From: Rhodoferax sp.
Lineage (GTDB): Bacteria > Pseudomonadota > Gammaproteobacteria > Burkholderiales > Burkholderiaceae_C
NCBI RefSeq assembly: GCF_030653815.1
Contig: NZ_JAURYQ010000031.1
Coordinates: forward strand, 62,001-126,000
DNA: 64,000 nt
Reading direction: 5' to 3'
Made by a program: the position numbers and the translations under genes. Positions within the stretch are counted from its first letter, which is position 1, and every line of letters starts with the position of its first letter. This document shows, piece after piece, positions 7,685 to 51,869 of the stretch. The notes below the pieces were generated by a model that made no database searches, was not told where the DNA came from, and saw only the letters and a program-made list of their open reading frames with translations.

Positions 7685-8689
7685 TTAGCGCGGCGCCGTC
7701 CCACGCAACTTGTCGATCAGACCGTTGAGTTCGTCGAGCGAGCCAAACTGGATGCTGAGTTCACCCATTTCTTCGATGCGTCCGGCGCGCTTGACACGCT
7801 TTTTCACCCGCACCTCCACCTCGGCCATCAGCAGGTCCGACAGCTCTTCCTCGACCCGCTTCAAGTCGCGCGACTTGTGTTTTTTGGGCTTGGAGGCCAC
7901 CAGAGAAAACTCTGCGCTGATCTTTTTGACCAGACTTTCGGCCTCACGCACCGACATTTTTTTGGCGGCAATCTGGTTGGCCGCAGTGATCTGGGTGGCC
8001 TTGTCCAGCGACAAGAGCGACCGGGCGTGACCCATGTCGATGTCACCCGCCATCAACATGGTTTGTACCGGCTCCGCCAAATTCAACAGGCGCAGCAGGT
8101 TGCTGGTGGCGCTGCGCGAGCGGCCCACGGCCTGCGCGGCGGTCTCGTGCGTCAGACCGAACTCCTTGATCAGGCGTTGCACGCCCTGCGCTTCTTCGAG
8201 CGGGTTGAGGTCTTCACGCTGGATGTTCTCGATCAGCGCCATGGCCGCGGCCGACTCGTTGGGGACGTCGCGTACCAGCACCGGAACACTTTCGAGACCC
8301 GCCAGTTTGGCAGCCCGAAACCGCCTTTCACCCGCAATGATTTCGTACACCGGGCGCACCATGCCACCGCCACTGGTGCCGCCAGTAAAGTCTGGCGACT
8401 GCTGGCTGCGCTTGAGTTCGGCGTCGGCATCGCTCAGGCGGCGCACCAGGATCGGTTGCATGATGCCTTGCGCCTTGATGGATTCGGCCAGCTCATAAAG
8501 TGCGCCCTCATCCATGCGCGTGCGCGGCTGGTATTGACCAGGTACCAAATCGGACAACAACAAGGTGGCAGGCAGACCGCTGTTGGCAGCCGAGGCCGCA
8601 GCGCTGTCAGGCGCCAGCGACTCAGCGACCGTGGGGCCCAACAAGGCTTCCAGACCGCGACCCAGGCCTTTGAGTTTTTTTGTGACCAT
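7685..8689 (-). CDS. parB: Chromosome partitioning protein ParB
   Basis: ParB/Spo0J motifs (GQYQPR, GERRFRAAKLAG, ENIQREDLNPLEEAQG). Confidence 0.97.
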   Translation of the reverse strand: MVTKKLKGLGRGLEALLGPTVAESLAPDSAAASAANSGLPATLLLSDLVPGQYQPRTRMDEGALYELAESIKAQGIMQPILVRRLSDADAELKRSQQSPDFTGGTSGGGMVRPVYEIIAGERRFRAAKLAGLESVPVLVRDVPNESAAAMALIENIQREDLNPLEEAQGVQRLIKEFGLTHETAAQAVGRSRSATSNLLRLLNLAEPVQTMLMAGDIDMGHARSLLSLDKATQITAANQIAAKKMSVREAESLVKKISAEFSLVASKPKKHKSRDLKRVEEELSDLLMAEVEVRVKKRVKRAGRIEEMGELSIQFGSLDELNGLIDKLRGTAPR

Positions 8690-8701: not shown

Positions 8702-9244
8702 TTAACTGTGTAAGAGTTCGTTCAACAAAACCTGACCTTGCGGCCAGTCGCCCAAGCCGGAGTCGGCGTTGATGTGCCCTGCAACGCCAGCGTCCACCAA
8801 GGTCGCGCCCCAAGCGGCGGCAAAGCCTTGAGCTCGCGCCAAGCTGCAACAAGGGTCGTCCTGACTGGCGACCAGCGTACTTTTGAAAGGCAGGGGCTGC
8901 AGCGGGATCGGCGACCAGCTGGCCAGCACCGGACGCAGCGACTCGTGCTCGACATCACCTGGCGCCACCAGCAATGCCGCCTTGACACGGTGTGTGTTGC
9001 GGCTGTGCGACGCCCAGGCCGCCACCAGCATGCAGCCCAGGCTGTGCGCCACCAGCACCGCAGGCGCGTTGGTGGACAAGATCACGTCTTCGAGACGGGC
9101 AATCCAGTCACCACGCAGCGGCCGCATCCAGTCGTGCTGCTCCACCCGCGGGTAGCCATGCCGGGCTTGCCACAGGCTTTGCCAGTGCTGCGGGCCCGAG
9201 CCTTGCCAGCCCGGCAAGATGAGAATGTTGGCGCAATCCGTCAC
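8702..9244 (-). CDS. RBBP9/YdeN-type alpha/beta hydrolase
   Basis: ILPGWQGSGPQHWQSLW and GHSLG-like VAHSLGCML; DPCCS/GHINADSGLGDWP catalytic region. Confidence 0.88.
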   Translation of the reverse strand: MTDCANILILPGWQGSGPQHWQSLWQARHGYPRVEQHDWMRPLRGDWIARLEDVILSTNAPAVLVAHSLGCMLVAAWASHSRNTHRVKAALLVAPGDVEHESLRPVLASWSPIPLQPLPFKSTLVASQDDPCCSLARAQGFAAAWGATLVDAGVAGHINADSGLGDWPQGQVLLNELLHS

Positions 9245-10026
9245 TGTGAATTAATCCGAAGCACCATTTCCTCGGCAAACGCCAGGAAGGCTTGGGCGCC
9301 TTTGCTCGACGGATCGAAAACAACCCCCGGTACCCCGTAACTGGGCGCTTCGGCCAGGCGCACATTGCGCGGAATCACGGTGTTGAACACCTTGTCGCCA
9401 AAACGCGCCTTGAGTTGTTCGCTCACCTGCTGCTGCAGGGTGATGCGCGGGTCAAACATGACGCGCAGCAAACCGATGATGGCCAGTTCCTTGTTCAGGT
9501 TGGCATGCACCTGCTTGATGGTGTTGACCAGATCGGCCAGGCCTTCGAGCGCAAAGTATTCGCACTGCATCGGCACGATCACGCCATGGGCACAGCACAA
9601 GCCGTTGAGGGTGAGCATCGACAGGCTGGGCGGGCAGTCAATCAAAATGAAGTCGTAGTCCTGGGCAACTTGGGCGAGCGCATTTTTCAGGCGTTTTTCG
9701 CGCCGCTCCAGCTCCACCATTTCAACCTCGGCCCCAGCCAGTTCGCGGTTGGCGCCCAGAATGTCATAGCCACACCCGGCATCGACCAGCTTGCCGCTTT
9801 GAACCCGAGCCTCGGCAATGGAAGCGGACTCCAGCAGCACGTCATATACCGTCAAGTCCAGCTTGCGCTTGTCCACCCCCGAGCCCATGGTGGCATTGCC
9901 CTGCGGGTCCAGGTCGACCATCAACACCCGCTGCCCCACCTTGGCCAAACCTGCTGCCAAATTGACTGTGGTGGTGGTCTTGCCCACACCCCCTTTTTGG
10001 TTGGCAATACAGAAAATTTTGGCCAT
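9241..10026 (-). CDS. parA: Chromosome partitioning ATPase ParA
   Basis: Deviant Walker [15 protein letters not shown]; whole-length ParA/Soj. Confidence 0.97.
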   Translation of the reverse strand: MAKIFCIANQKGGVGKTTTTVNLAAGLAKVGQRVLMVDLDPQGNATMGSGVDKRKLDLTVYDVLLESASIAEARVQSGKLVDAGCGYDILGANRELAGAEVEMVELERREKRLKNALAQVAQDYDFILIDCPPSLSMLTLNGLCCAHGVIVPMQCEYFALEGLADLVNTIKQVHANLNKELAIIGLLRVMFDPRITLQQQVSEQLKARFGDKVFNTVIPRNVRLAEAPSYGVPGVVFDPSSKGAQAFLAFAEEMVLRINSQ

Positions 10027-10057: not shown

Positions 10058-10073
10058 TGTTTCACGTGAAACA
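10058..10073. promoter_or_regulatory. parS site
   Basis: TGTTTCACGTGAAACA, perfect palindrome upstream of parA. Confidence 0.95.
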
Positions 10074-10109
10074 TGGGCGCTAGTGTAATTGGGCTCTGCG
10101 GCTTGTGTT

Positions 10110-10730
10110 TTAACGCGATATCGCCAGCTTGACTCCAAAACCAATCAGGCAAACACCGGCCAGCTTCTGCAAGACCGAGGACACCACAGGGCTGGCGCGC
10201 AAGCGTTCGGCCAAAAAATATGTCAACAACACCACGACAAAACAATAAATGAATGCCAACACCGCCACGGTCAGCGCCATGACGCCAAAGGTCAACCAAC
10301 CGCGGTGCGCAACCGGATCAATGAACAGCGGCAGGAAGGCCATGTAAAACACGATCGCTTTCGGGTTGAGCACCGTGATGGCCAGGGCTTGCTGAAAATA
10401 ATGGCGCGGCTTGATGTGGATGATGGCGGGCGCCCCGGGCTTGGCCATGAGCATCTTGAAGCCCAGCCAGGCGAGATACGCAGCACCCAGCCATTGCACT
10501 GCATTGAACGCCGTCGGGTAAGCCATGAGCAGCGCGGCAAGACCTGCCACCGCCAGCCACAACAACACCTGGTCCCCCAGCATCAGGCCGAAGGTGGCAG
10601 CCAACCCGCCCAGAATGCCACCCTTGGTGGTGGACGTGATGATGGCCAGATTGCCCGGTCCGGGAATGAACAGCAACACGATGAAAGCCAGCACAAACGC
10701 GCCGTAATCTGAAATACCAAACATGTCCAC
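10110..10730 (-). CDS. LysE/RhtB-family amino-acid exporter
   Basis: FIPGPGNLAIITSTTKGGILGGLAATFG LysE motif; 6 TM-like segments. Confidence 0.9.
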   Translation of the reverse strand: MDMFGISDYGAFVLAFIVLLFIPGPGNLAIITSTTKGGILGGLAATFGLMLGDQVLLWLAVAGLAALLMAYPTAFNAVQWLGAAYLAWLGFKMLMAKPGAPAIIHIKPRHYFQQALAITVLNPKAIVFYMAFLPLFIDPVAHRGWLTFGVMALTVAVLAFIYCFVVVLLTYFLAERLRASPVVSSVLQKLAGVCLIGFGVKLAISR

Positions 10731-10759
10731 CCCTTGTTATGTGGCCATCAGCCGATCAC

Positions 10760-11430
10760 TCATTCGCAATGCGCGATGGGCTTCATCCAAATCAAACACC
10801 GTTCGGCATCCAGCCCCGGCACCGTGAGTTGTTCCACGTGGAACACTTTAATGCTTGGCGACAAAGCCGCCAGCTCATCGGCAGGATACCTGGCTTTCAT
10901 GGCCATCCACACGCCTTGTACCGCCAACGCCTGCATTGACCATTGGGTGAAGTCTGCCAACGAAGCAAAGGCGCGCGAACTGATCACCTGGTATTTATCC
11001 GTCAAACTCTCAACCCGCGCGTGGACGCCCCGCAAGTTGGGTAGCTTGAGCGTCACCGCTGCCTGCTGGATGAAAGCCGCTTTCTTGCCCACGGTATCAA
11101 CACAATCCACCCGGATGTCGGGGCAGCAAATGGCGATCACCACCCCAGGCAAACCGGCGCCGGAGCCCACATCCAACAAACGAACTGGTTCGACTCGCGG
11201 ACTCGGAGCCAGCAGCGCCAGTTGCCGACGCAAGGTCGGAATCACTGCCAGACTGTCCAGCAGATGGTGTGTCAGCATGTCGTCCGGGTCGCGCACCGCC
11301 GTCAGGTTATAGACCTTGTTCCATTTCCCGATCAGTGCCTGATAAGCCAACAAACTGTCGACTTGCGCATCGCTCAGGTTCAGGTCCAGCGCCACCAGAC
11401 CGGCGCGCAATCTGGCTGCCAGCGTTTGCA

Positions 11431-11431
<1 letters not shown>
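10760..11431 (-). CDS. rsmG: 16S rRNA (guanine527-N7)-methyltransferase
   Basis: LLDVGSGAGLPGVVIAI motif; next to mnmG. Confidence 0.96.
10830..10845. promoter_or_regulatory. parS-like site within rsmG
   Basis: TGTTCCACGTGGAACA, perfect palindrome, parS core CACGTG. Confidence 0.85.
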
Positions 11432-13473
<2,042 letters not shown>

Positions 13474-13645: not shown

Positions 13646-14860
13646 ATGGCCTCCGGAAAAATACTCGTCGCCCAGGGCGGCGGCCCCACCGCCGTCATCA
13701 ACCAATCACTGGTGGGGGTGGCACTGGAGGCCCGGCGCTTCAGCCAGGTCGGCCACATTTATGGCGCCCACCATGGCGTGCGCGGCATCATCGACGAAGA
13801 CTTTGTCGACCTGACGCAGGAAACCAGCCACAACCTGGAGCTGGTTGCCAACACACCTTCCAGCGCTTTGGGCTCGACCCGCGACAAGCCCGACGCGGCT
13901 TATTGCCACGAGATTTTCAAGGTCTTGCAAGCGCATCAGATCGGCCATTTTTTCTATATTGGCGGCAATGACTCGTCCGACACAGTACGCATCGTCAGCC
14001 AGGAGGCGCAAGCGGCCAATTACGACCTGCGCTGCATTCACATCCCCAAAACCATTGACAACGACCTGGTCGGCAATGACCACACTCCCGGCTTTCCCTC
14101 GGCCGCACGTTTTGTGGCGCAGGCCTTTGCCGGCGCCAACCTCGACAACGCCGCCCTGCCTGGCGTCTATGTGGGCGTGGTCATGGGGCGCCACGCTGGT
14201 TTTCTGACAGCGGCGTCCGCCCTGGGCAAAAAATTCCCGGATGACGGCCCGCATCTGATTTACCTGCCGGAGCGGACCTTCGACCTGAACCAGTTTTTAC
14301 TCGACGTCAAAACCATGTATGAGCGCCACGGCCGCTGCGTGATTGCGGTTTCCGAAGGCATCCACGATGCCAGCGGCACACCCATCGCGGCACTGCTGGC
14401 CAAGGAAATGGAACACGATGCGCATGGCAACGTGCAGCTCTCGGGCAACGGCGCACTGGCAGATTTGTTGTGCGAAGAAATCAAGGCCAAGCTCAAGATC
14501 AAACGCGTCCGGGGTGACACTTTTGGCTACCTGCAGCGCTCGTTCATTGGCTGCGTGTCGGATGTGGACCAGCGCGAAGCCCGCGAAGTGGGCGAAAAAG
14601 CGGTGCAATTTGCCATGTGGGGCGGGCGCGATGGCTCAGTGGCCATCAAGCGCACCGGCTTTTACTCGGTGGATTACGAACTGCTGCCGCTGGAGGCTGT
14701 GGCCGGTAAAACCCGCGTGATGGAAGACGAGTTCATCACCGCCAGCGGCACCGATGTCACCGACGCGTTTCGCATGTACCTGCGTCCCTTGCTGGGCTCG
14801 GGCATGCCCGATGCCTTCCGGTTGCGCCACCACCCGGTCGCTCGCGTGCTCAAAAAATAG
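13646..14860 (+). CDS. 6-phosphofructokinase, PPi-dependent type
   Basis: YIGGNDSSDT and PKTIDND (Lys in place of Gly of ATP-PFK); start at ATG 13646 inside ORF 13472..14860. Confidence 0.88.
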   Translation: MASGKILVAQGGGPTAVINQSLVGVALEARRFSQVGHIYGAHHGVRGIIDEDFVDLTQETSHNLELVANTPSSALGSTRDKPDAAYCHEIFKVLQAHQIGHFFYIGGNDSSDTVRIVSQEAQAANYDLRCIHIPKTIDNDLVGNDHTPGFPSAARFVAQAFAGANLDNAALPGVYVGVVMGRHAGFLTAASALGKKFPDDGPHLIYLPERTFDLNQFLLDVKTMYERHGRCVIAVSEGIHDASGTPIAALLAKEMEHDAHGNVQLSGNGALADLLCEEIKAKLKIKRVRGDTFGYLQRSFIGCVSDVDQREAREVGEKAVQFAMWGGRDGSVAIKRTGFYSVDYELLPLEAVAGKTRVMEDEFITASGTDVTDAFRMYLRPLLGSGMPDAFRLRHHPVARVLKK

Positions 14861-24009: not shown

Positions 24010-24473
24010 AACTCCTGATCACCCTGTTTCTTGCCTTGCAATGCGCCATTGGGGTGCACGCCAACGAAGCCGCCCCACTGGCCGAAGACCCGGTGGTAGA
24101 GCAGCGCCTGATCGTCATTGCCGAAGAACTGCGCTGCCTGGTGTGCCAAAACGAATCGCTCGCCGGCTCGCGCGCTGACCTGGCCATGGACCTGCGCCGT
24201 GAGGTACGCACCCTGATCAAGGCTGGCAAGACCGATGCAGAAATCAAGGAATTTCTGGTCAGTCGCTACGGCGACTTTGTTTTGTATCGGCCCCCGGTCA
24301 AACCGACCACCTGGTTGCTCTGGTTCGGACCGCTGCTGCTCTTGATCGGTGCCGTGTGGCTGCTGATCAGCATTATCAAGCGTAATCAAAGACAAAAAGA
24401 AACACCTGTTCTCGACGCCACTCAACGGGCCAAGGCACAGGCACTCCTTCAAGAAACCGATTCTTCCAAATGA
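24006..24473 (+). CDS. ccmH: Cytochrome c maturation protein CcmH
   Basis: ELRCLVCQNESLAGSRADLA signature. Confidence 0.96.
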   Translation: MKLLITLFLALQCAIGVHANEAAPLAEDPVVEQRLIVIAEELRCLVCQNESLAGSRADLAMDLRREVRTLIKAGKTDAEIKEFLVSRYGDFVLYRPPVKPTTWLLWFGPLLLLIGAVWLLISIIKRNQRQKETPVLDATQRAKAQALLQETDSSK

Positions 24474-25813
24474 ATGTATTTATTGGCATTTCAGCGCTTT
24501 TAACGCTGCTGGTGGTGGCTTGGCTCGTGCGTCCGCTACTGCGTAAACATACCGTGGCAGGCATTTCAAGCGAAAAGCTCAACGCCGCCATCCACCGCGA
24601 TCAACTGCGCGCCCTGGAAGCCGACTTGGCACGTGGTGTGATTACCCAACAAGACTTTGAAACCACCCGTGACGAGCTGCAACTGCGCTTGCTCGACGAC
24701 ACGGAAAGCTTTGAAGCCAGCCCGAAGGAAAAGACACCGGGCTTCTGGACTGCCAGGCGTACTTCTGTCGCGGTTGGCATCAGCTTGCCGGTCATGGCCT
24801 TGGGGCTCTATCTGCAATTGGGCACACCCGAAGCCATCAATCCTGTCGCGGCTGACCACACCCAAAACGAGCAGCTTGCCAAAATGGTGGACACCCTGGC
24901 AGCCAGACTCAAGGACAACCCGAACGACAGCAAAGGTTGGGTCATGCTGGCCAAATCCTACAAGGCCATGGAACGTTTCGAAGAAGCACAACAGGCTTTT
25001 GAGAAAGCGGGCGACATCGTTAAAACCGATCCTGAACTACTGCTGGATCATGCCGACGTGTTGGGCGTGCTTGCCGGCAACAATCTTGCAGGCAAACCAA
25101 AACAGATGATTGAAGAAGCTTTGCGCCTGGACCCCATGAATCCCATGGCGCTGATGATGGACGGTGTCGCTCTTTACCAAAGTGGTGACTATAAGAATGC
25201 CGTGACACGTTGGGAAAAATTGCTGGACCTGTTGCAACCCGGCTCTCCCGACGCGCAGCAAGTGCAAGCCAATATAGACGATGCTCGCGCCAAAGGCGGT
25301 CTGTCTGCCGGTGCGAGTAACGCACTGCCACCGGTGCCCGCTGGCGCGGCCGCCGGCATGACCCCGGAGATGATCAACCAGATGGTGGATCGGCTGGCGG
25401 CGCGGTTGAAAGACAATCCGGACGACCTGGCTGGCTGGGCACGCCTGGCACGCGCTTACAAGGTGCAAAACCGCCTGGATGAAGCGATTGCCGCCTATGC
25501 CAAAACCGGCAAGTTGCTCGACACCGACCCAGACTTGCTAACGCAATATGCTGATGCCCTGGCCATGCGCAACAAGAGCCTGCTGGGTCAACCTGGCGAA
25601 CTGGTCCAGAAAGCCCTGGCCATCGCACCCAGGCACCCCATGGCCTTGATGATGGCCGGCCAGGCAGCTTATCAGGGCGGCCATTACGCGACCGCGATCA
25701 GCCACTGGAAGAACGTCCTGTCAGTCTTGCCGGCCAATTCACCCGACACCGAGCTCATCAAAGCTGAAATTGCCGACGCTCAAGCCAGGATCGGCAGCAC
25801 TGGCAAGCCCTAA
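24470..25813 (+). CDS. ccmI: Cytochrome c maturation protein CcmI with two tandem TPR modules
   Basis: N-terminal CcmI-1 TM domain then repeated MVDxLAARLKDNPxD...NPMALMM modules. Confidence 0.92.
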   Translation: MNVFIGISALLTLLVVAWLVRPLLRKHTVAGISSEKLNAAIHRDQLRALEADLARGVITQQDFETTRDELQLRLLDDTESFEASPKEKTPGFWTARRTSVAVGISLPVMALGLYLQLGTPEAINPVAADHTQNEQLAKMVDTLAARLKDNPNDSKGWVMLAKSYKAMERFEEAQQAFEKAGDIVKTDPELLLDHADVLGVLAGNNLAGKPKQMIEEALRLDPMNPMALMMDGVALYQSGDYKNAVTRWEKLLDLLQPGSPDAQQVQANIDDARAKGGLSAGASNALPPVPAGAAAGMTPEMINQMVDRLAARLKDNPDDLAGWARLARAYKVQNRLDEAIAAYAKTGKLLDTDPDLLTQYADALAMRNKSLLGQPGELVQKALAIAPRHPMALMMAGQAAYQGGHYATAISHWKNVLSVLPANSPDTELIKAEIADAQARIGSTGKP

Positions 25814-25833
25814 GTACCCAGTCCCCATCCCCA

Positions 25834-25859
25834 GGCCCGGTTTTACCGGGCTTTTTTTT
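25834..25859 (+). terminator. Rho-independent terminator of ccm operon
   Basis: GCCCGGTTTTACCGGGC followed by T8. Confidence 0.85.
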
Positions 25860-26210
25860 GGTCATTTTTTTTTAACCCGTCAAGAATTACGCGAATTTTT
25901 AAACTGTATAAAGTTGTGGATAAATGAACTTGAAAACAAAAGTTATCCACATTTTTTTAAAAAATCTCAAGTTATCCAAATTAAGGATGCAGATCAAAAG
26001 CATGGTACCCAACAACAGAAGAGCATGCCTAAGTTTATGATTTTTATAATGTTAATTGACTTATCCACGGAAATTGGAAGACTCTATCTACTACGACTAC
26101 TTTAAAATATAAATTAGTTGAAGACAATAAAGGCAATTTTTTAACCATTTTTTGCAACATTTAAAAAATCAAAAAAATCCTGTGCATAGAAACAATAAAA
26201 GCTGGCTCAC
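25860..26210. other. Candidate replication-origin-like region (DnaA-box cluster plus AT-rich tract)
   Basis: DnaA boxes: TGTGGATAA 25915-25923, TTATCCACA 25943-25951, TTATCCAAA 25972-25980, TTATCCACG 26061-26069; adjoining AT-rich runs; noncoding. Confidence 0.6.
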
Positions 26211-26314
26211 GACCTTTTTTGCAGCTGAATCAAGTAAGATTTGCCTGTCCGCAAACAGCAACTTGGCACTTGCCATTTGTCCAGCTACTTTTCATCCATT
26301 TTTTTTCAGGCTTC

Positions 26315-45048: not shown

Positions 45049-46140
45049 TTAACCGCGCACGGTGCTGTGGTAAGCACCTTCGCTGACATCGGCCCAGCGT
45101 TGGTACTTGGCCATGAACGCCATGTAAGAGTCGTGCACCTTCTTGGTCATGGGGTCCTTGGCCACGGCTTCGGTCAGCACCTTGTCGGTTTCCGTCCGCA
45201 GCGCCTTGATCACGCCCTCAGGCAGCGGCTTGGCGATGACCTTCTGGTTCTTGATCAGGTCTTCCATGGCATCGGCATTGGCCTTCTGGCACCAGGCCTC
45301 GCTGATCACGTTGCAGGCTGCGGCGGCGTTTTGCACAATGGCCTGCAAGTCCTTGGGCAGCGTTTGCCAGGCCGCCTTGTTGATCAACAACTCGGACACC
45401 GTGGCCGACTCGTGCCAACCGGTGGTGTAGTAGTACTTGGCCGCCTTGTGTAGCCCCAGGCGACGGTCCTGGAACGGGCCAACAAACTCGGCCGCATCAA
45501 TCACGCCGCGCTCCAGCGCCGGGAAAATTTCACCGCCTGGCAGCACCTTCACATCGACACCCAGGTTGGCGTACACCTTGCCCGCCAGGCCGGGAATACG
45601 CATCTTCAAGCCCTTCAGGTCGGCCACGGTCTTGATCTCTTTTTTGAACCAGCCGGTCATCTGCACCCCGGTATTGCCACACGGCATGGCCACCATGCCA
45701 AAGGGCGCGTACACCTCGTTCCACAGGTCAATGCCGCCGCCGTCGTACAGCCAGCCGTTCATGCCCTGGAAGTTCATGCCAAAAGGCACCGCCGTGAAGT
45801 ACTGCGCGGCAAAGGTTTTGCCGGTCCAGAAATAGCTGTTGGCGTGGTTCATTTCCACTGTGCCGGCGCGTACGGCGTCAAAGCCCTCAAAGGCCGGGAT
45901 CAACTCACCCGCGCCAAACACCTGAATGTTGAGCCGACCATCAGACATCTCCTTGATGCGCTTGGCCAGGTCGGTGGCGCTGCCGGGGCCATCGAAGTAA
46001 AACGGCGACCCCTTGGGGTAGGCACTGGTCATTTTCCAGTTGAAAGTTCCCTTGCTTTGGGCTTGAACGAGCGACGGTGCGCTCAATACACCACCAGACA
46101 AGGCAGCGGTCGTGAGAAATTTGCGGCGAATCAGTGTCAT
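45049..46140 (-). CDS. TRAP transporter substrate-binding protein DctP
   Basis: Tat-like RRKF signal; FAAQYFTAVPFGMNFQGMNGWLYDGGG; LKGLKMRIPGLAGKVYANLG. Confidence 0.93.
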   Translation of the reverse strand: MTLIRRKFLTTAALSGGVLSAPSLVQAQSKGTFNWKMTSAYPKGSPFYFDGPGSATDLAKRIKEMSDGRLNIQVFGAGELIPAFEGFDAVRAGTVEMNHANSYFWTGKTFAAQYFTAVPFGMNFQGMNGWLYDGGGIDLWNEVYAPFGMVAMPCGNTGVQMTGWFKKEIKTVADLKGLKMRIPGLAGKVYANLGVDVKVLPGGEIFPALERGVIDAAEFVGPFQDRRLGLHKAAKYYYTTGWHESATVSELLINKAAWQTLPKDLQAIVQNAAAACNVISEAWCQKANADAMEDLIKNQKVIAKPLPEGVIKALRTETDKVLTEAVAKDPMTKKVHDSYMAFMAKYQRWADVSEGAYHSTVRG

Positions 46141-46522
46141 GTGAAATGGCTCCAGTTGCAATTGAGGGTTAACAGTCGTACGAAACCGTTTGTAAGGCGG
46201 TCTATCTACCCCTATGCAAAAGCCATGCCATCATAAAAATTGATTTAAGTTGTTGTTTTATAAGAGTTTATTTAAATAAAAAGGAAGCCCCTGAAAAGTC
46301 GCCGCACACGGAAAAAGCGAGTTTTTCAAAAAATGATTGTTTCGAATGTTTGTTAAATGAGGTCTTCAAGGTCATTTGTATGGTGATGAGCACCACTTTG
46401 GTTTGCTTGAGTTCGCGCAACGACTCAAAACAGCCACCAAAAATGACAATTGGCAACGAAGCCCCTCGGTGCACATCTAACGTGCACCTGCACCACAACG
46501 GGGTAAACCCTTAATCAGCTGA

Positions 46523-46563
46523 GGTCAGAGCAAGTCGCTTTGCAAGCGGTCTGACCCGCTTGC
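46523..46563. repeat. REP-like palindromic element, copy 3 (opposite orientation)
   Basis: GGTCAGAGCAAGTCGCTTTGCAAGCGGTCTGACCCGC; 33/38 identical to reverse complement of copy 2. Confidence 0.8.
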
Positions 46564-46567
46564 ATTT

Positions 46568-47059
46568 CTAAAGGCGGGCGCCACCGCGCCGGTTTTTGAC
46601 ACGGGTCATCAGCGTCTTGCAGTCCACGGACAAAATTTCAGGCCGGTTGAAGATGCGCTTGCGCACAAAGGCGTCAAAAGTTTCCATGCTGTCGGTGAGC
46701 GCATGGATGTGCAAACTTTGCAAGTCACTCATGATGTAGAGACTCACCACTTCATGGCAGTCTGCCAACTCCTGGGCGACGGCTTCAAGCGCCGCAGGTG
46801 CCACACGAATGTCAACAAAAGTCGAAATCACTTTGCCCAGCTTTTCCGGGTTGATGACCGCCCCGAACAGCTCGATCACACCACTGCTAACGAGCACCTG
46901 CACACGGGCGCGGGCATAGGCCCGAGACACGCCAAGCTGGCGTGCAATGTCGGCAAAGGAGGCACGGCCATCCTTGACCAAAATATTGAGCAAGGCGCTG
47001 TCCAGCTTGCTCAAGGTGGCGCTGGTCGCTTCTTGGGGAACAGGGGGTGGTGTGGTCAT
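46568..47059 (-). CDS. Lrp/AsnC-family transcriptional regulator
   Basis: N-terminal HTH (LDSALLNILVKDGRASFADIARQLGVSRAYARARVQVL) plus RAM domain. Confidence 0.9.
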   Translation of the reverse strand: MTTPPPVPQEATSATLSKLDSALLNILVKDGRASFADIARQLGVSRAYARARVQVLVSSGVIELFGAVINPEKLGKVISTFVDIRVAPAALEAVAQELADCHEVVSLYIMSDLQSLHIHALTDSMETFDAFVRKRIFNRPEILSVDCKTLMTRVKNRRGGARL

Positions 47060-47562
47060 GGTTTGCTATTCGGTGCAAATATAGTCGTAAACAGGCACCT
47101 GGCATTCATGCGGGTTAGCGGCCTGGCAAATTGACAATAGTCGAGTTGAAGTCGTAAACAACTTTACACCATTGATCACCGCGATTGGGTCTCGCAGCGT
47201 CTGAACTTGCCAGAGCTGAGCACTTTGGCTGCCGTCAACCGGTCCGTCGTCGCTGACTCTTGAGTGCCCAAAGCTGTCAGCCGTCGTCGGCGGAAGCAGT
47301 CATTCAACTTTGCTCAGGAAAATCATTAAGCTGACTGTCATCGTCGAAGGGTAATGTGTGTCGAATGGTTGGCTCTACGCGTGTTAATTTCATTTACACG
47401 TGACGCCAAAAAACCGACAGCGATGTACTTCCGTTTGGCGTCATGTCGGGCATCCTCTCCCTCCAATTGGAGTGCCTGCTGCAGTCCTTCAGCCCGAAGT
47501 ACCATCAAGCATGTGTCGTATGGAATGCGTCAGTGACATGGTTCGCATTGATCAATGCGATG

Positions 47563-48657
47563 TCAAGGCGAAGATGACTCTCTCCAATAGCCACCCACAT
47601 TCCTGAACGATGTTTGCGCAGCGCGTATATATCCTGCGCCAGTGCCGTTTGTGTAAACGTACCCATTCGAGCGCATTTTCAATTGAGTTGGCCATGATAA
47701 CGGGCGCGGCATGAGTGACTCGGTATGGATTAATGCCTCATTATGGTCGTCGGCTTCTTTTCTTTTTACTGTACGGTAGACTTTGTGGTCTCCTTCTACT
47801 CGGTCGAGAACAGCATAATTTACGCGGTGTCGAAACAGTAACCTTTGCTTTTCGATAGAACGACAACTTCTGTAAACCCATTCGCGATGTTCCCATTCCC
47901 GAAAGTAAATGTTGGCCTGAGCATTTAAGAACTGATGCTCATTGATTGCAGCAACATCTCGATCTCTGCGCAAGTCCGACCATCCTCTCTCGTGTGAAAG
48001 GTTATAAACGTCGCCGTCATAGGCCACGCACATTACACGGGGGCTCAGTGGAAGAAAGAAAGTTACCCCACAAGCCATCATTCCCGCAGAATTATGCTGC
48101 ACCCGGGGATCCACCATATGCCAGCGGTTGCTCATTACGGAGGGATCGTCCGACGTGACGAAGGGTCGGGATGTCCTGTTACGCAATAAACAAACCTTCA
48201 GGTCATCAATGACATGCATCATGCTGGAGAAATTTCGCATCGCCATCTGAACGGCCTCTTTGATGGATGGTTTGAAATCCGGTATGCCTGGATCAATGAC
48301 GCTATTCATGCTGTCGAGCATTTCTACATTGCGACGTGAGGCGGCTTCAGTTCTTATGTACTGAAAGATCATAAAAATCCGCAGAACAACGCGATCGGCC
48401 TCTGTTAAATGGTAGCCGGGCTTATGAATCCGTGATACGACTGCAGCGTACTCACCTTCTATTCTTTGAATCGCACTCTCAAGTTGGAAATCTTGACCGT
48501 AAAAGTAATCGCCAGAGCACTGGTTCTTTACTGGAGCACCAGAAATACAGCGATTCCTATCCAAATTAAGAATGTTTATGGCCAAGTTTTCACCGTTGTG
48601 GGTAAAAGACTTTAAATAGCACCTGGGAACGAAATGCTGGTTTTTATTTGTGGCCAC
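47563..48657 (-). CDS. DUF4238-type protein
   Basis: Opens MATNKNQHFVPRCYLKSFTHNG, the DUF4238 signature. Confidence 0.82.
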   Translation of the reverse strand: MATNKNQHFVPRCYLKSFTHNGENLAINILNLDRNRCISGAPVKNQCSGDYFYGQDFQLESAIQRIEGEYAAVVSRIHKPGYHLTEADRVVLRIFMIFQYIRTEAASRRNVEMLDSMNSVIDPGIPDFKPSIKEAVQMAMRNFSSMMHVIDDLKVCLLRNRTSRPFVTSDDPSVMSNRWHMVDPRVQHNSAGMMACGVTFFLPLSPRVMCVAYDGDVYNLSHERGWSDLRRDRDVAAINEHQFLNAQANIYFREWEHREWVYRSCRSIEKQRLLFRHRVNYAVLDRVEGDHKVYRTVKRKEADDHNEALIHTESLMPRPLSWPTQLKMRSNGYVYTNGTGAGYIRAAQTSFRNVGGYWRESSSP

Positions 48658-48663
48658 GGTTAA

Positions 48664-49221
48664 TTATGCGGCCCGTATATGCGCTGCTAACATTGACGCT
48701 AGTTCAATATACGACTTAGCATCATTTTCACTGAGATTCAACTCTTTCGCATGTGCAACTTTATTACGGAGCTGCCTAAGTTTGTTGAATGTTTCGAGCT
48801 GATTTTTGTCTATTACTTTGCATTGAAGCAGGTATTCACCAAGTTTTGGATAGTTTCTAAATATCTCGTTTGGTGGCTTATTCCAGAAGGAACTAGCGAT
48901 TGTGGTGGCCGCAGATTCGACCTCAAGCCACGCCTCCATAATGGCAGCGCGAGTGGAGTACGAAACAAGATTTAATAGACGAGCCTCTGTGGAGGCTTGC
49001 GTGAGCTGTTCTTGTATTTTTGTAGGCTCCAATCCCGCCGCAACGGCTTTTAGTTCAGCCACCTCTTTAGAAAACTCGATTTCAAGCTCTTTATATTTTA
49101 GATTTCGAAGGAATGGCAGGAGCTCAACGACAGGCTTCCTGAGCATCAGCGCCAAAATAACTGCGGCGGTTGGCCATGCTAAGGATTTAATTGCTTCTGA
49201 CAAGAATGTGAGAATGTCCAT
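48664..49221 (-). CDS. Membrane-anchored hypothetical protein with C-terminal HEPN-like RX4H motif
   Basis: N-terminal TM then coiled segment; KLRQLRNKVAHAKEL motif. Confidence 0.65.
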   Translation of the reverse strand: MDILTFLSEAIKSLAWPTAAVILALMLRKPVVELLPFLRNLKYKELEIEFSKEVAELKAVAAGLEPTKIQEQLTQASTEARLLNLVSYSTRAAIMEAWLEVESAATTIASSFWNKPPNEIFRNYPKLGEYLLQCKVIDKNQLETFNKLRQLRNKVAHAKELNLSENDAKSYIELASMLAAHIRAA

Positions 49222-49300
49222 CTACTATCAATACTCCTTTGCTACCCGAAGGTGTCAATTGAAAATAACCTTCGGCCTATGACGCCTTTAAACAAAAGAG

Positions 49301-50080
49301 CTAAATTTTCAGCGTCTGCTTAATCGTCTCCCACTCGACAGTGAGTGTCGGATTTAGTCTGTGAAAAACTTTCGTTGACAGCGTGACTGCAGCATTTGCC
49401 TTCGCGGACTCATACATTACAAACGCAGCGACCGATCGGGCACGAAAGTTCGCTGAACTTTTCTGGTCACCAAGGAATAGTTGGTACAAAGTTGAATACG
49501 TGGCTTCAAACTTCTGCCTTAGCCACTCCAGCCGTAGCCATTTGGAGATGATTTGTTCACTAAAAACAATCTGCGACACCGCCACAATCCATCCGATGTC
49601 GGTAGTCCGGTTTATAGCGGCAAATACCCACAAGGCAGCATAAGCAAAGGCACGCCAACGCTCCAATACAAGCATTGTCAGAGCAATGTTCTTGCTGAAG
49701 AACGCATTTTCTAGAGCTTGCGCAGCTACGCGCCGCACAGCATCAGTCGCATCATTGTTGTAATACCCTGTCGTCGTGATGTGCGTTAGTGGAATGTCAT
49801 ATGCCTTCGCAAAGAAGTCCTGAATCCTTGCCTCATCCGCGCGTGGCATCCAGTACAGCCTCACTGCTAGCCCAATACAAAAAACCGCGACAACCGCGAA
49901 CGCGAAGACTACGTTCAATACGTTGAAAAGCAATGGATACTCGGCACGTTCGACAAACAATACGACGACTGAAACTAATGCAGTGAAGTAGAAAACCCGA
50001 TCTGCCCAGACATTTGCCTTATCGAGAGCAACAAAGTAGCGACCATGAATTGGGTCAGACCGAGGTGTGATGCTAGCCAT
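49301..50080 (-). CDS. S-4TM-type putative pore-forming effector (CBASS)
   Basis: Two paired TM segments before and after a soluble linker (VFYFTALVSVVVLFV, LFNVLNVVFAFAVVAVFCIGLAVRLYW ... FAYAALWVFAAI); overlaps the CD-NTase 3' end. Confidence 0.75.
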   Translation of the reverse strand: MASITPRSDPIHGRYFVALDKANVWADRVFYFTALVSVVVLFVERAEYPLLFNVLNVVFAFAVVAVFCIGLAVRLYWMPRADEARIQDFFAKAYDIPLTHITTTGYYNNDATDAVRRVAAQALENAFFSKNIALTMLVLERWRAFAYAALWVFAAINRTTDIGWIVAVSQIVFSEQIISKWLRLEWLRQKFEATYSTLYQLFLGDQKSSANFRARSVAAFVMYESAKANAAVTLSTKVFHRLNPTLTVEWETIKQTLKI

Positions 50081-50936
50081 ATACAGGGAACCTCTCGCCA
50101 AAGAGTTGCTTCCACTTAGTGATCGCGGCCTTGGGATCATTGTTTGTTCCGTAAGTCAATGACCAAGCACTTCTGCTAAGTTCAATGGCCGTATCGAATC
50201 GCTTGCATATTTCAGTACGATCATTGGATGACAAATAGTCGTCAGCAAATCCGAGGTCGTGCCACAGGATGGTATTCAGTAATGGTCGAGCCTTGTCAAA
50301 GAACTGGAACACTTGCCAACCAGTGTCATCAAGGTTGCTATCAAACACTTTGAGCGCGAGCACCTCAATGTGATAACTCTGGAGGTAACGACCGTGTAGG
50401 CGATTCCACTCCTTGATCATCTTGATGATGCGTCTAAAATTTGCACCGCACGTAGTGGACCGTTTCTCGATATCGTCTGCGTGAACTTTCGGACGAGACG
50501 CAATCCAGGTGTCCGTGTTGGAATTTGGAACGTTGTAATGCGTAATATTGCCAACTGAATCTTGAACGCGGCTGACAGGCACTACATCCACGGTGGGCCA
50601 TGTCGTGTAGTACAGCGTGACAGCCTGACCATTCTTTCTACCGCCAGTCTTCCATTCGGAGAGTGATTTTCGAATGCTCTCAAGTACCTCGGTCGGCGTC
50701 TTGTCCTTTATGTGCTTTCCATAGTGCAATGCGACGATCACATCAAGGTCTGCATGATCCTTCAAAGCTGTGAACTTCGGGATTGACCCACTCGCGAAAG
50801 ACTCGACGATCTCGAAGTCCTTACTCAACTTCGAGACGATGTTGTCTCTTCTCGAATTCGCTGTGTCACGATGGTTACCACCAAGGTTTATATTCTCGTA
50901 GAAGGTATTGAAAGACGACGCGACTGTTGTTGGCAT
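50073..50936 (-). CDS. CD-NTase (SMODS/cGAS-like nucleotidyltransferase) of CBASS
   Basis: ASGSIPKFTALKDHADLDVIVAL = GS...DxD active site with third acidic VDVVPV; start Met at 50936. Confidence 0.85.
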   Translation of the reverse strand: MPTTVASSFNTFYENINLGGNHRDTANSRRDNIVSKLSKDFEIVESFASGSIPKFTALKDHADLDVIVALHYGKHIKDKTPTEVLESIRKSLSEWKTGGRKNGQAVTLYYTTWPTVDVVPVSRVQDSVGNITHYNVPNSNTDTWIASRPKVHADDIEKRSTTCGANFRRIIKMIKEWNRLHGRYLQSYHIEVLALKVFDSNLDDTGWQVFQFFDKARPLLNTILWHDLGFADDYLSSNDRTEICKRFDTAIELSRSAWSLTYGTNNDPKAAITKWKQLFGERFPVYG

Positions 50937-51160
50937 AGGCTCCAAATGTGAATTACTAATCGTCCCCGCTTCCGCTGCGCAAGAGCCGCCCAGCAGCAGA
51001 ACCTGATTTTCCATAAATAACGGCGGCTGACGACGGTGCGGTCAGCTCTATGTCTGCAATGGAGGGCTGCGTAAATGACCGCTGTCGAGTCGGCGTCCAA
51101 AAAAGTGCCTGATTCGAATACACGGTTTCGTTGTCATTCTGATGGTTTAGGCATGGTTTG

Positions 51161-51184
51161 TATATCCCCCAAATGGGGGGTATC
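51161..51184. promoter_or_regulatory. G/C-tract palindrome, CsoR-operator-like
   Basis: TATATCCCCCAAATGGGGGGTATC. Confidence 0.35.
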
Positions 51185-51869
51185 GCTGAATGACCGTAAC
51201 TAGCTGCACTGCTGTCGGCCAAACGAAGGATTGGTCTTTCTACCATCGAATGACTGCTGTTGATCTCTGTCGTCAGATCAGTGACTGCAATGGAGGGCAT
51301 ATGGCCAATGTCTCCATCTGGTCGCCACAAGCCAGCCATAGTCACAAAATGCTAGCCTCAGACCTGACTTTGGGCTTTGATTAAATCGAGCGACCATACA
51401 GCCGCTGGTTGTGGCCGTGAACTATGTGCCCAAAGCCGAATTTCGGTTTATCGAAATGCCAGCCCGACAACGGCCGTTGATCCCGTCAAGTAATGCTCGC
51501 GGGATAGCCGGCTGGAGTTCCATAAAGCAGCCCTTCAATTCACCTCGACCGATCCACATTACCGACATTGGCGGAGGGAAAGTTTGAGGCCACAGTGAAC
51601 CTATAAGCGGAAGTTGGCGAGGCGCTAACTGGACTTTCTCGATCAACGGGTATGTCGGAACCACGATGCCGCGTAATGCCTCGATCATGCTCCTGCCAGG
51701 AATTACGCGGGCACCAGCAATGTCGCTTCGCCATCGCGATGTTCTCGATTGACGTGGCCAAGGAATTTGAGCAGTTTGGCTTCGTGAAGCTTCTTCCCGT
51801 CGTTCAAATACTCGCGTACGATAGGCGCTTCGTGCGCGCATTTCAAAGACCAACCGGAGACAACATATC

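Follow-up and report, generated by a model that had tools for sequence, protein, structure and literature searches.

We identified a segment in an AT-rich gap upstream of minCDE (positions 25906-26199) that, from comparison of its sequence with related genomes, is very probably the chromosomal origin of replication, oriC, relocated from the dnaA-dnaN gap. The window, meaning the whole stretch of 64,000 nucleotides analyzed here, corresponds to bases 62001-126000 of contig C31 in an assembly of 3.57 Mb and 44 contigs that is 98% complete. The nearest named relatives of its MinC belong to Rhodoferax and other Comamonadaceae metagenome-assembled genomes, and the closest (88% identity) is that of Burkholderiales bacterium RIFOXYD12_FULL_59_19. 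The gap has a GC content of 0.343, against 0.589 for the 64-kb window, and the lowest-GC 300 bp of the window (27% GC) start inside it, at 25894. Profile and parS searches of the window located a parABS partition locus near the candidate origin. The arrangement of the region is as follows.

7685-8689, minus strand: parB, left of the gap
9241-10026, minus strand: parA, left of the gap
10058-11986, no strand: parS cluster with perfect sites at 10058, 11770 and 11971, origin-proximal partition sites
10760-11431, minus strand: rsmG, left of the gap
11431-13473, minus strand: mnmG, left of the gap
24470-25813: ccmI, left flank of the gap (profile TIGR03142)
25814-26314, no strand: intergenic region holding the candidate relocated oriC, 501 bp, 34% GC, between ccmI and minC
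26227-26245, plus strand: GAATCAAGTAAGATTTGCC block adjoining minC, with ATCAAGTAARATT nearly invariant in the minC-linked alignment
26315, GTG start: minC, right flank of the gap (profile TIGR01222)

The GAATCAAGTAAGATTTGCC block is probably part of the minC promoter region and not of the origin.

A preliminary description of this DNA had claimed the 501-bp AT-rich gap between ccmI and minC, the leftward-reading mnmG, rsmG, parA and parB with parS sites to its left, and two perfect and two one-mismatch DnaA boxes within it. The profiles and base composition bore out the gap and its flanking genes, all four genes to the left lie on the minus strand with three perfect parS sites, and all four boxes were found where they had been placed. 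A DnaA-trio array and an IHF-like site were absent from that description. Together, the boxes, the trio array and the IHF-like site form a cassette of approximately 210 bp.

25906-26113, plus strand: core of the oriC cassette, approximately 208 bp, 29% GC, a full-length match to the cassette model R1
25915-25923, minus strand: DnaA box 1, perfect, TGTGGATAA, 28 bp left of box 2, a conserved spacing
25943-25951, plus strand: DnaA box 2, perfect, TTATCCACA, the most conserved box
25972-25980, plus strand: DnaA box 3, one mismatch, TTATCCAAA, degenerate in relatives
26030-26042, minus strand: IHF-like site, one mismatch to WATCAANNNNTTR
26061-26069, plus strand: DnaA box 4, one mismatch, TTATCCACG, adjoining the trios
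26085-26102, plus strand: DnaA-trio array TATCTACTACGACTACTT, reading GAT GAT GCT GAT GAA on the other strand, 3' to 5', from 26088
26100-26199, no strand: putative AT-rich unwinding element, 21% GC

The clustering of DnaA boxes exceeded chance expectation. Fourteen boxes with at most one mismatch were observed in the window against 7.3 expected, a number reached in 3 of 100 shuffles, and four of them, both perfect ones included, fall within 155 bp, beside the AT-rich element. Genome-wide, 14 perfect boxes were found in 3.57 Mb, with no other pair at most 200 bp apart. The spacing of the elements is also preserved: in most relatives, 142-143 bp separate box 2 from the trio motif to its right, and in 88 of 110 distinct cassettes box 4, the last box, is followed after 15 bp by TAnCTACTA, where the alignment shows the conserved TATCTACTACNACTA. 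The IHF site is perfect in 58 of the 110 distinct cassettes and has at most one mismatch in 102, compared with 2.7% and 35% in shuffles; in 50 of the 110 the sites share one fixed offset.

The basal unwinding system of Bacillus subtilis and Helicobacter pylori consists of a DnaA box, a spacer, at least three 3'-GAT-5'-type trios and an AT-rich region (PMC8287927). The DnaA-trio consensus is 3'-GAT-5', the usual spacer is 10-13 bp, and the published search was run with a preset maximum of 16 bp (PMC8287927). The window shares with this system a box followed by at least three such trios and an AT-rich region, and its trio element is a good, but not textbook, match to the published DnaA-trio, since the spacer between box 4 and the first GAT trio, at 18 bp, slightly exceeds the preset maximum. 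Unlike the B. subtilis and H. pylori system, the window adds an upstream box pair and an IHF-like site, giving one larger cassette.

From this anatomy we infer DnaA and IHF binding, unwinding and firing. DnaA would bind the box pair at 25915/25943 and the box at 26061, and an IHF bend near 26030 would join the pair with the latter. From box 4, DnaA-ATP would spread onto the DnaA-trio strand at 26085-26102, and DnaA on the trios would melt the adjoining AT-rich DNA at 26100-26199, leading to helicase loading. The new origins would be segregated by ParB bound at parS, which lies 14-16 kb left of the cassette.

Loss of the boxes in close relatives had been set as a refuting test, and their conservation was instead observed: throughout the genus, by which we mean 90 genomes of Rhodoferax-like Comamonadaceae, the boxes are conserved along with their spacing, the trio and the IHF site. 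Of 80 named minC loci, 43 have boxes in matching positions, with separations of 28 and approximately 118 bp. This spacing holds although the gene beyond the boxes varies, with ccmI in some loci and divergent genes in others. The trio pattern TANCTACTACNRCTA occurs in 66/90 genus genomes, mostly once, with a low reversed-pattern background. R1, a cassette model that uses sequence alone, matched 86/90 genus genomes and 50 of the 51 good ones, scores that are partly circular because R1 was built from the genus. Its seed includes the window cassette, so that the window's own match (G000:C31:87907-88114, 114.6 bits, E 8.6e-33) is likewise non-independent; the matches in other genera are independent. 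In a family sample of 131 genomes from 126 genera, R1 matched 125 genomes at E <= 1e-5. Five chance hits to the trio pattern in other genera, all without boxes (L168, L174, L183, L184 and L190), served as a negative control and gave no match to R1. Two family genomes with dnaA, G132 and G214, had no cassette match at E <= 1e-5; they may have a different kind of origin or one that has diverged too far. Upstream of minC in Mitsuaria sp. WAJ17 (L064), a cluster of two perfect and two one-mismatch boxes lies at 289-647 bp; its spacing differs and it gave no match to the cassette model.

The strongest evidence for origin function is homology to the cassette that follows dnaA in other genera. The dnaA-dnaN gap is the classical position of a bacterial origin. 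Among the 112 best family matches listed with positions, 42 lie on the same strand as dnaA and within 600 bp downstream of it, 38 are at other places on the contig that carries dnaA (some of these distances wrap around a circular record beginning at dnaA, as in G005), and 32 lie on another contig. The dnaA-dnaN cassettes of other genera score 72-115 bits for most, and those of the Burkholderiaceae genera represented by G092, G102 and G163 are homologous to the window cassette, with a box 142-143 bp before the trios, the trio motif and the AT-rich tract. The window cassette differs in being detached from dnaA and lying upstream of minC. Since it is conserved and homologous to the cassette at the canonical dnaA site, the window copy would itself be an origin. 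From its frequency, the dnaA position would be the ancestral one, and we infer the direction of the move from it.

As the preliminary description had claimed, the cassette does not adjoin dnaA in the window's genome; dnaA is on contig C25, in the order rpmH-dnaA-dnaN-gyrB, where dnaA was tested by profile and the other three are what we take to be rpmH, dnaN and gyrB from their order and sequence. The dnaA-dnaN gap there is only 105 bp, and a search with R1 of 20 kb around this dnaA gave no cassette match. The reading as a dnaA-detached oriC proposed earlier is supported by the conservation of the boxes and by the homologous cassette directly downstream of dnaA elsewhere.

One alternative is that the boxes regulate minC in a DnaA-dependent manner, coupling division-site control to replication, with the true origin elsewhere. 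Such a role is favored by the placement of the cassette in the window's lineage, where its distance upstream of minC is almost always 160-310 bp, and by the conserved promoter-like block that separates the two. However, in other genera the cassette follows dnaA or occupies other sites, and the minC genes of Acidovorax and Variovorax lack it, their upstream regions giving no match to R1. A DnaA-trio array and an AT-rich tract would also be unexpected for a promoter. Furthermore, the cassette remains where minC was not detected: in G018 and G028, draft genomes in which minC may have been missed, it is still beside the homologue of the Cu-ATPase that follows minCDE in the window. These observations indicate that the cassette is not simply a minC control region, and we consider this alternative very unlikely.

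Just as improbable is a reading of the cassette as a DnaA-titration or reactivation locus, similar to datA or DARS, with oriC in the rpmH-dnaA gap. That region (C25:53490-53898) does contain one perfect and one one-mismatch DnaA box, 49 bp apart, as this reading would have it. The comparison with the dnaA-upstream region, which had been proposed as a check, nevertheless gave no match to the origin model in the rpmH-dnaA gap, and its two boxes fit dnaA autoregulation. A datA or DARS locus would be a box cluster without an unwinding element and trios, and the trios, the AT-rich tract and the homology to the dnaA-dnaN origin are unexpected for one; neither does the GC skew of a relative, G031, favor dnaA. 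Cassette homology and placement led us to reject both the regulatory and the datA/DARS-like readings. A box pair similar to that in the rpmH-dnaA region lies directly before dnaA in G005, and such pairs possibly serve dnaA autoregulation.

GC skew supports the assignment of the cassette as oriC in one genome. In the complete 4.59-Mb chromosome of G031, the 20-kb blocks that were sampled have negative skew between 1.15 Mb and the cassettes (3.17-3.18 Mb) and, past the cassettes, mostly positive skew, so that the sign switches at the minC-side cassettes. A step model with the origin at the cassettes scored 0.955 (tied best) against 0.793 at dnaA, 154 kb away, in a comparison made without a significance test and with denser sampling of blocks around the cassettes and dnaA. 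Elsewhere skew is compatible with this assignment but not decisive, and in the window's fragmented genome it is only roughly compatible. The skew minimum of G005 is at +0.4 kb, at most 15 kb from both of its cassettes. In G003, of which approximately 252 kb were read, nearly all on one side, a local minimum lies at 35.4 kb, next to the cassette at 40.8 kb (40.7 kb from dnaA), with dnaA at 0.4 kb. In G002 and G025, the minimum is located between the cassettes and dnaA and does not distinguish the two positions. A skew minimum near the gap had been suggested as a check; the cumulative minimum of the window's contig is approximately 28 kb to the right of the cassette. A search of eight genomes for dif with an E. 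coli-like core found none; the published R. ferrireducens dif differs from that core.

Several relatives carry two complete cassettes, which raises the further alternative that the window cassette is one of at least two working origins or sub-origins in its genome. Only one strong R1 match was found there, the others being a reverse-strand overlap and one at E = 0.004, and in an assembly that is 98% complete a second copy is unlikely. We therefore give this alternative very little weight. Among the relatives, complete second cassettes lie approximately 630 bp apart in G002, G026 and G035, 530 bp apart in G048 and 1.1 kb apart, with a third match, in G066. Second matches on separate contigs of the more contaminated drafts G032, G057, G076 and G089 were not counted as duplicates. 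Examples with coordinates, each with both cassettes on one chromosome, are the following.

G002, C2:2239290-2240128: two cassettes
G005, C1:4936252-4936457 and 14541-14749: two cassettes, one immediately upstream of dnaA and, approximately 15 kb on, one upstream of minC
G025, C3:283035-283244 and 305516-305726: two cassettes, 22 kb apart
G031, C1:3171194-3171401 and 3176020-3176229: two cassettes (L103), 4.8 kb apart

Two or three matches, some of them weaker, were obtained in 39 of the 131 genomes that make up the family sample. Three matches each were observed in G093, G094, G106, G127, G135 and G197, some spread over 4-30 kb of one contig.

In a tree of cassettes, based on approximately 210 bp and with unreliable deeper branches, the copies in G002, G026 and G035 group by position (91-98% identity) and not by genome (75-80%), indicating that both copies were kept through speciation. 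In each of G048, G066 and G005, the copies within the genome have one another as closest or joint-closest relatives, a pattern that suggests separate duplications or conversion. Origins would move through such duplications. We tentatively propose, at less than even likelihood, that the Burkholderiaceae oriC is a movable cassette of approximately 210 bp that has repeatedly duplicated and left dnaA, that lineages with two cassettes (G002/G026/G035, G005, G025 and G031) may fire both as origins or sub-origins, and that relocation may proceed via two-origin intermediates.

The prevailing view of bacteria is that there is one origin per chromosome, usually beside dnaA. Origins detached from dnaA are already known from E. 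coli, in which oriC (mnmG-mioC) has DnaA boxes, an IHF site and an AT-rich unwinding element, with mnmG in the neighborhood. The window cassette shares with it the detachment from dnaA, the DnaA boxes, an IHF(-like) site, the AT-rich element and mnmG in the neighborhood; it differs in its clear DnaA-trios, in having minC as its neighbor and in lying 12 kb from mnmG. The separation of the E. coli oriC from dnaA has been noted, and its trio (BUS) score is weak (PMC8287927). Putative double origins, in which a chromosome has multiple predicted oriC regions, have also been reported, and one of the species concerned, Ralstonia pickettii 12D, belongs to the Burkholderiales (Gao 2015; PMC4403523). 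In contrast to those cases, the extra copies in the relatives studied here are recognizable homologues of one cassette, and the window's genome has one. Our search of the open literature yielded neither a described Rhodoferax or minC-linked origin nor an account of a family in which one homologous cassette can be followed from dnaA to minC and occurs in natural duplicates. DoriC may already list some of these positions. One recognizable cassette can be tracked over approximately 120 genera, beside dnaA, beside minC, elsewhere or with a second copy, and origin relocation and natural two-origin chromosomes become testable questions. Placing origins or numbering genomes by dnaA can err by tens to hundreds of kilobases in Burkholderiaceae.

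Two further features of this genome were observed. At 46000-51500 of the window, near the contig's local GC-skew minimum, a stretch with several open reading frames has 46-50% GC against 59% and is possibly acquired DNA. On contig C17, two perfect DnaA boxes at 230495 and 230699 (L008) lie in a non-origin context; they are spaced 204 bp apart, gave no match to the cassette model and are possibly a DnaA-binding regulatory site.
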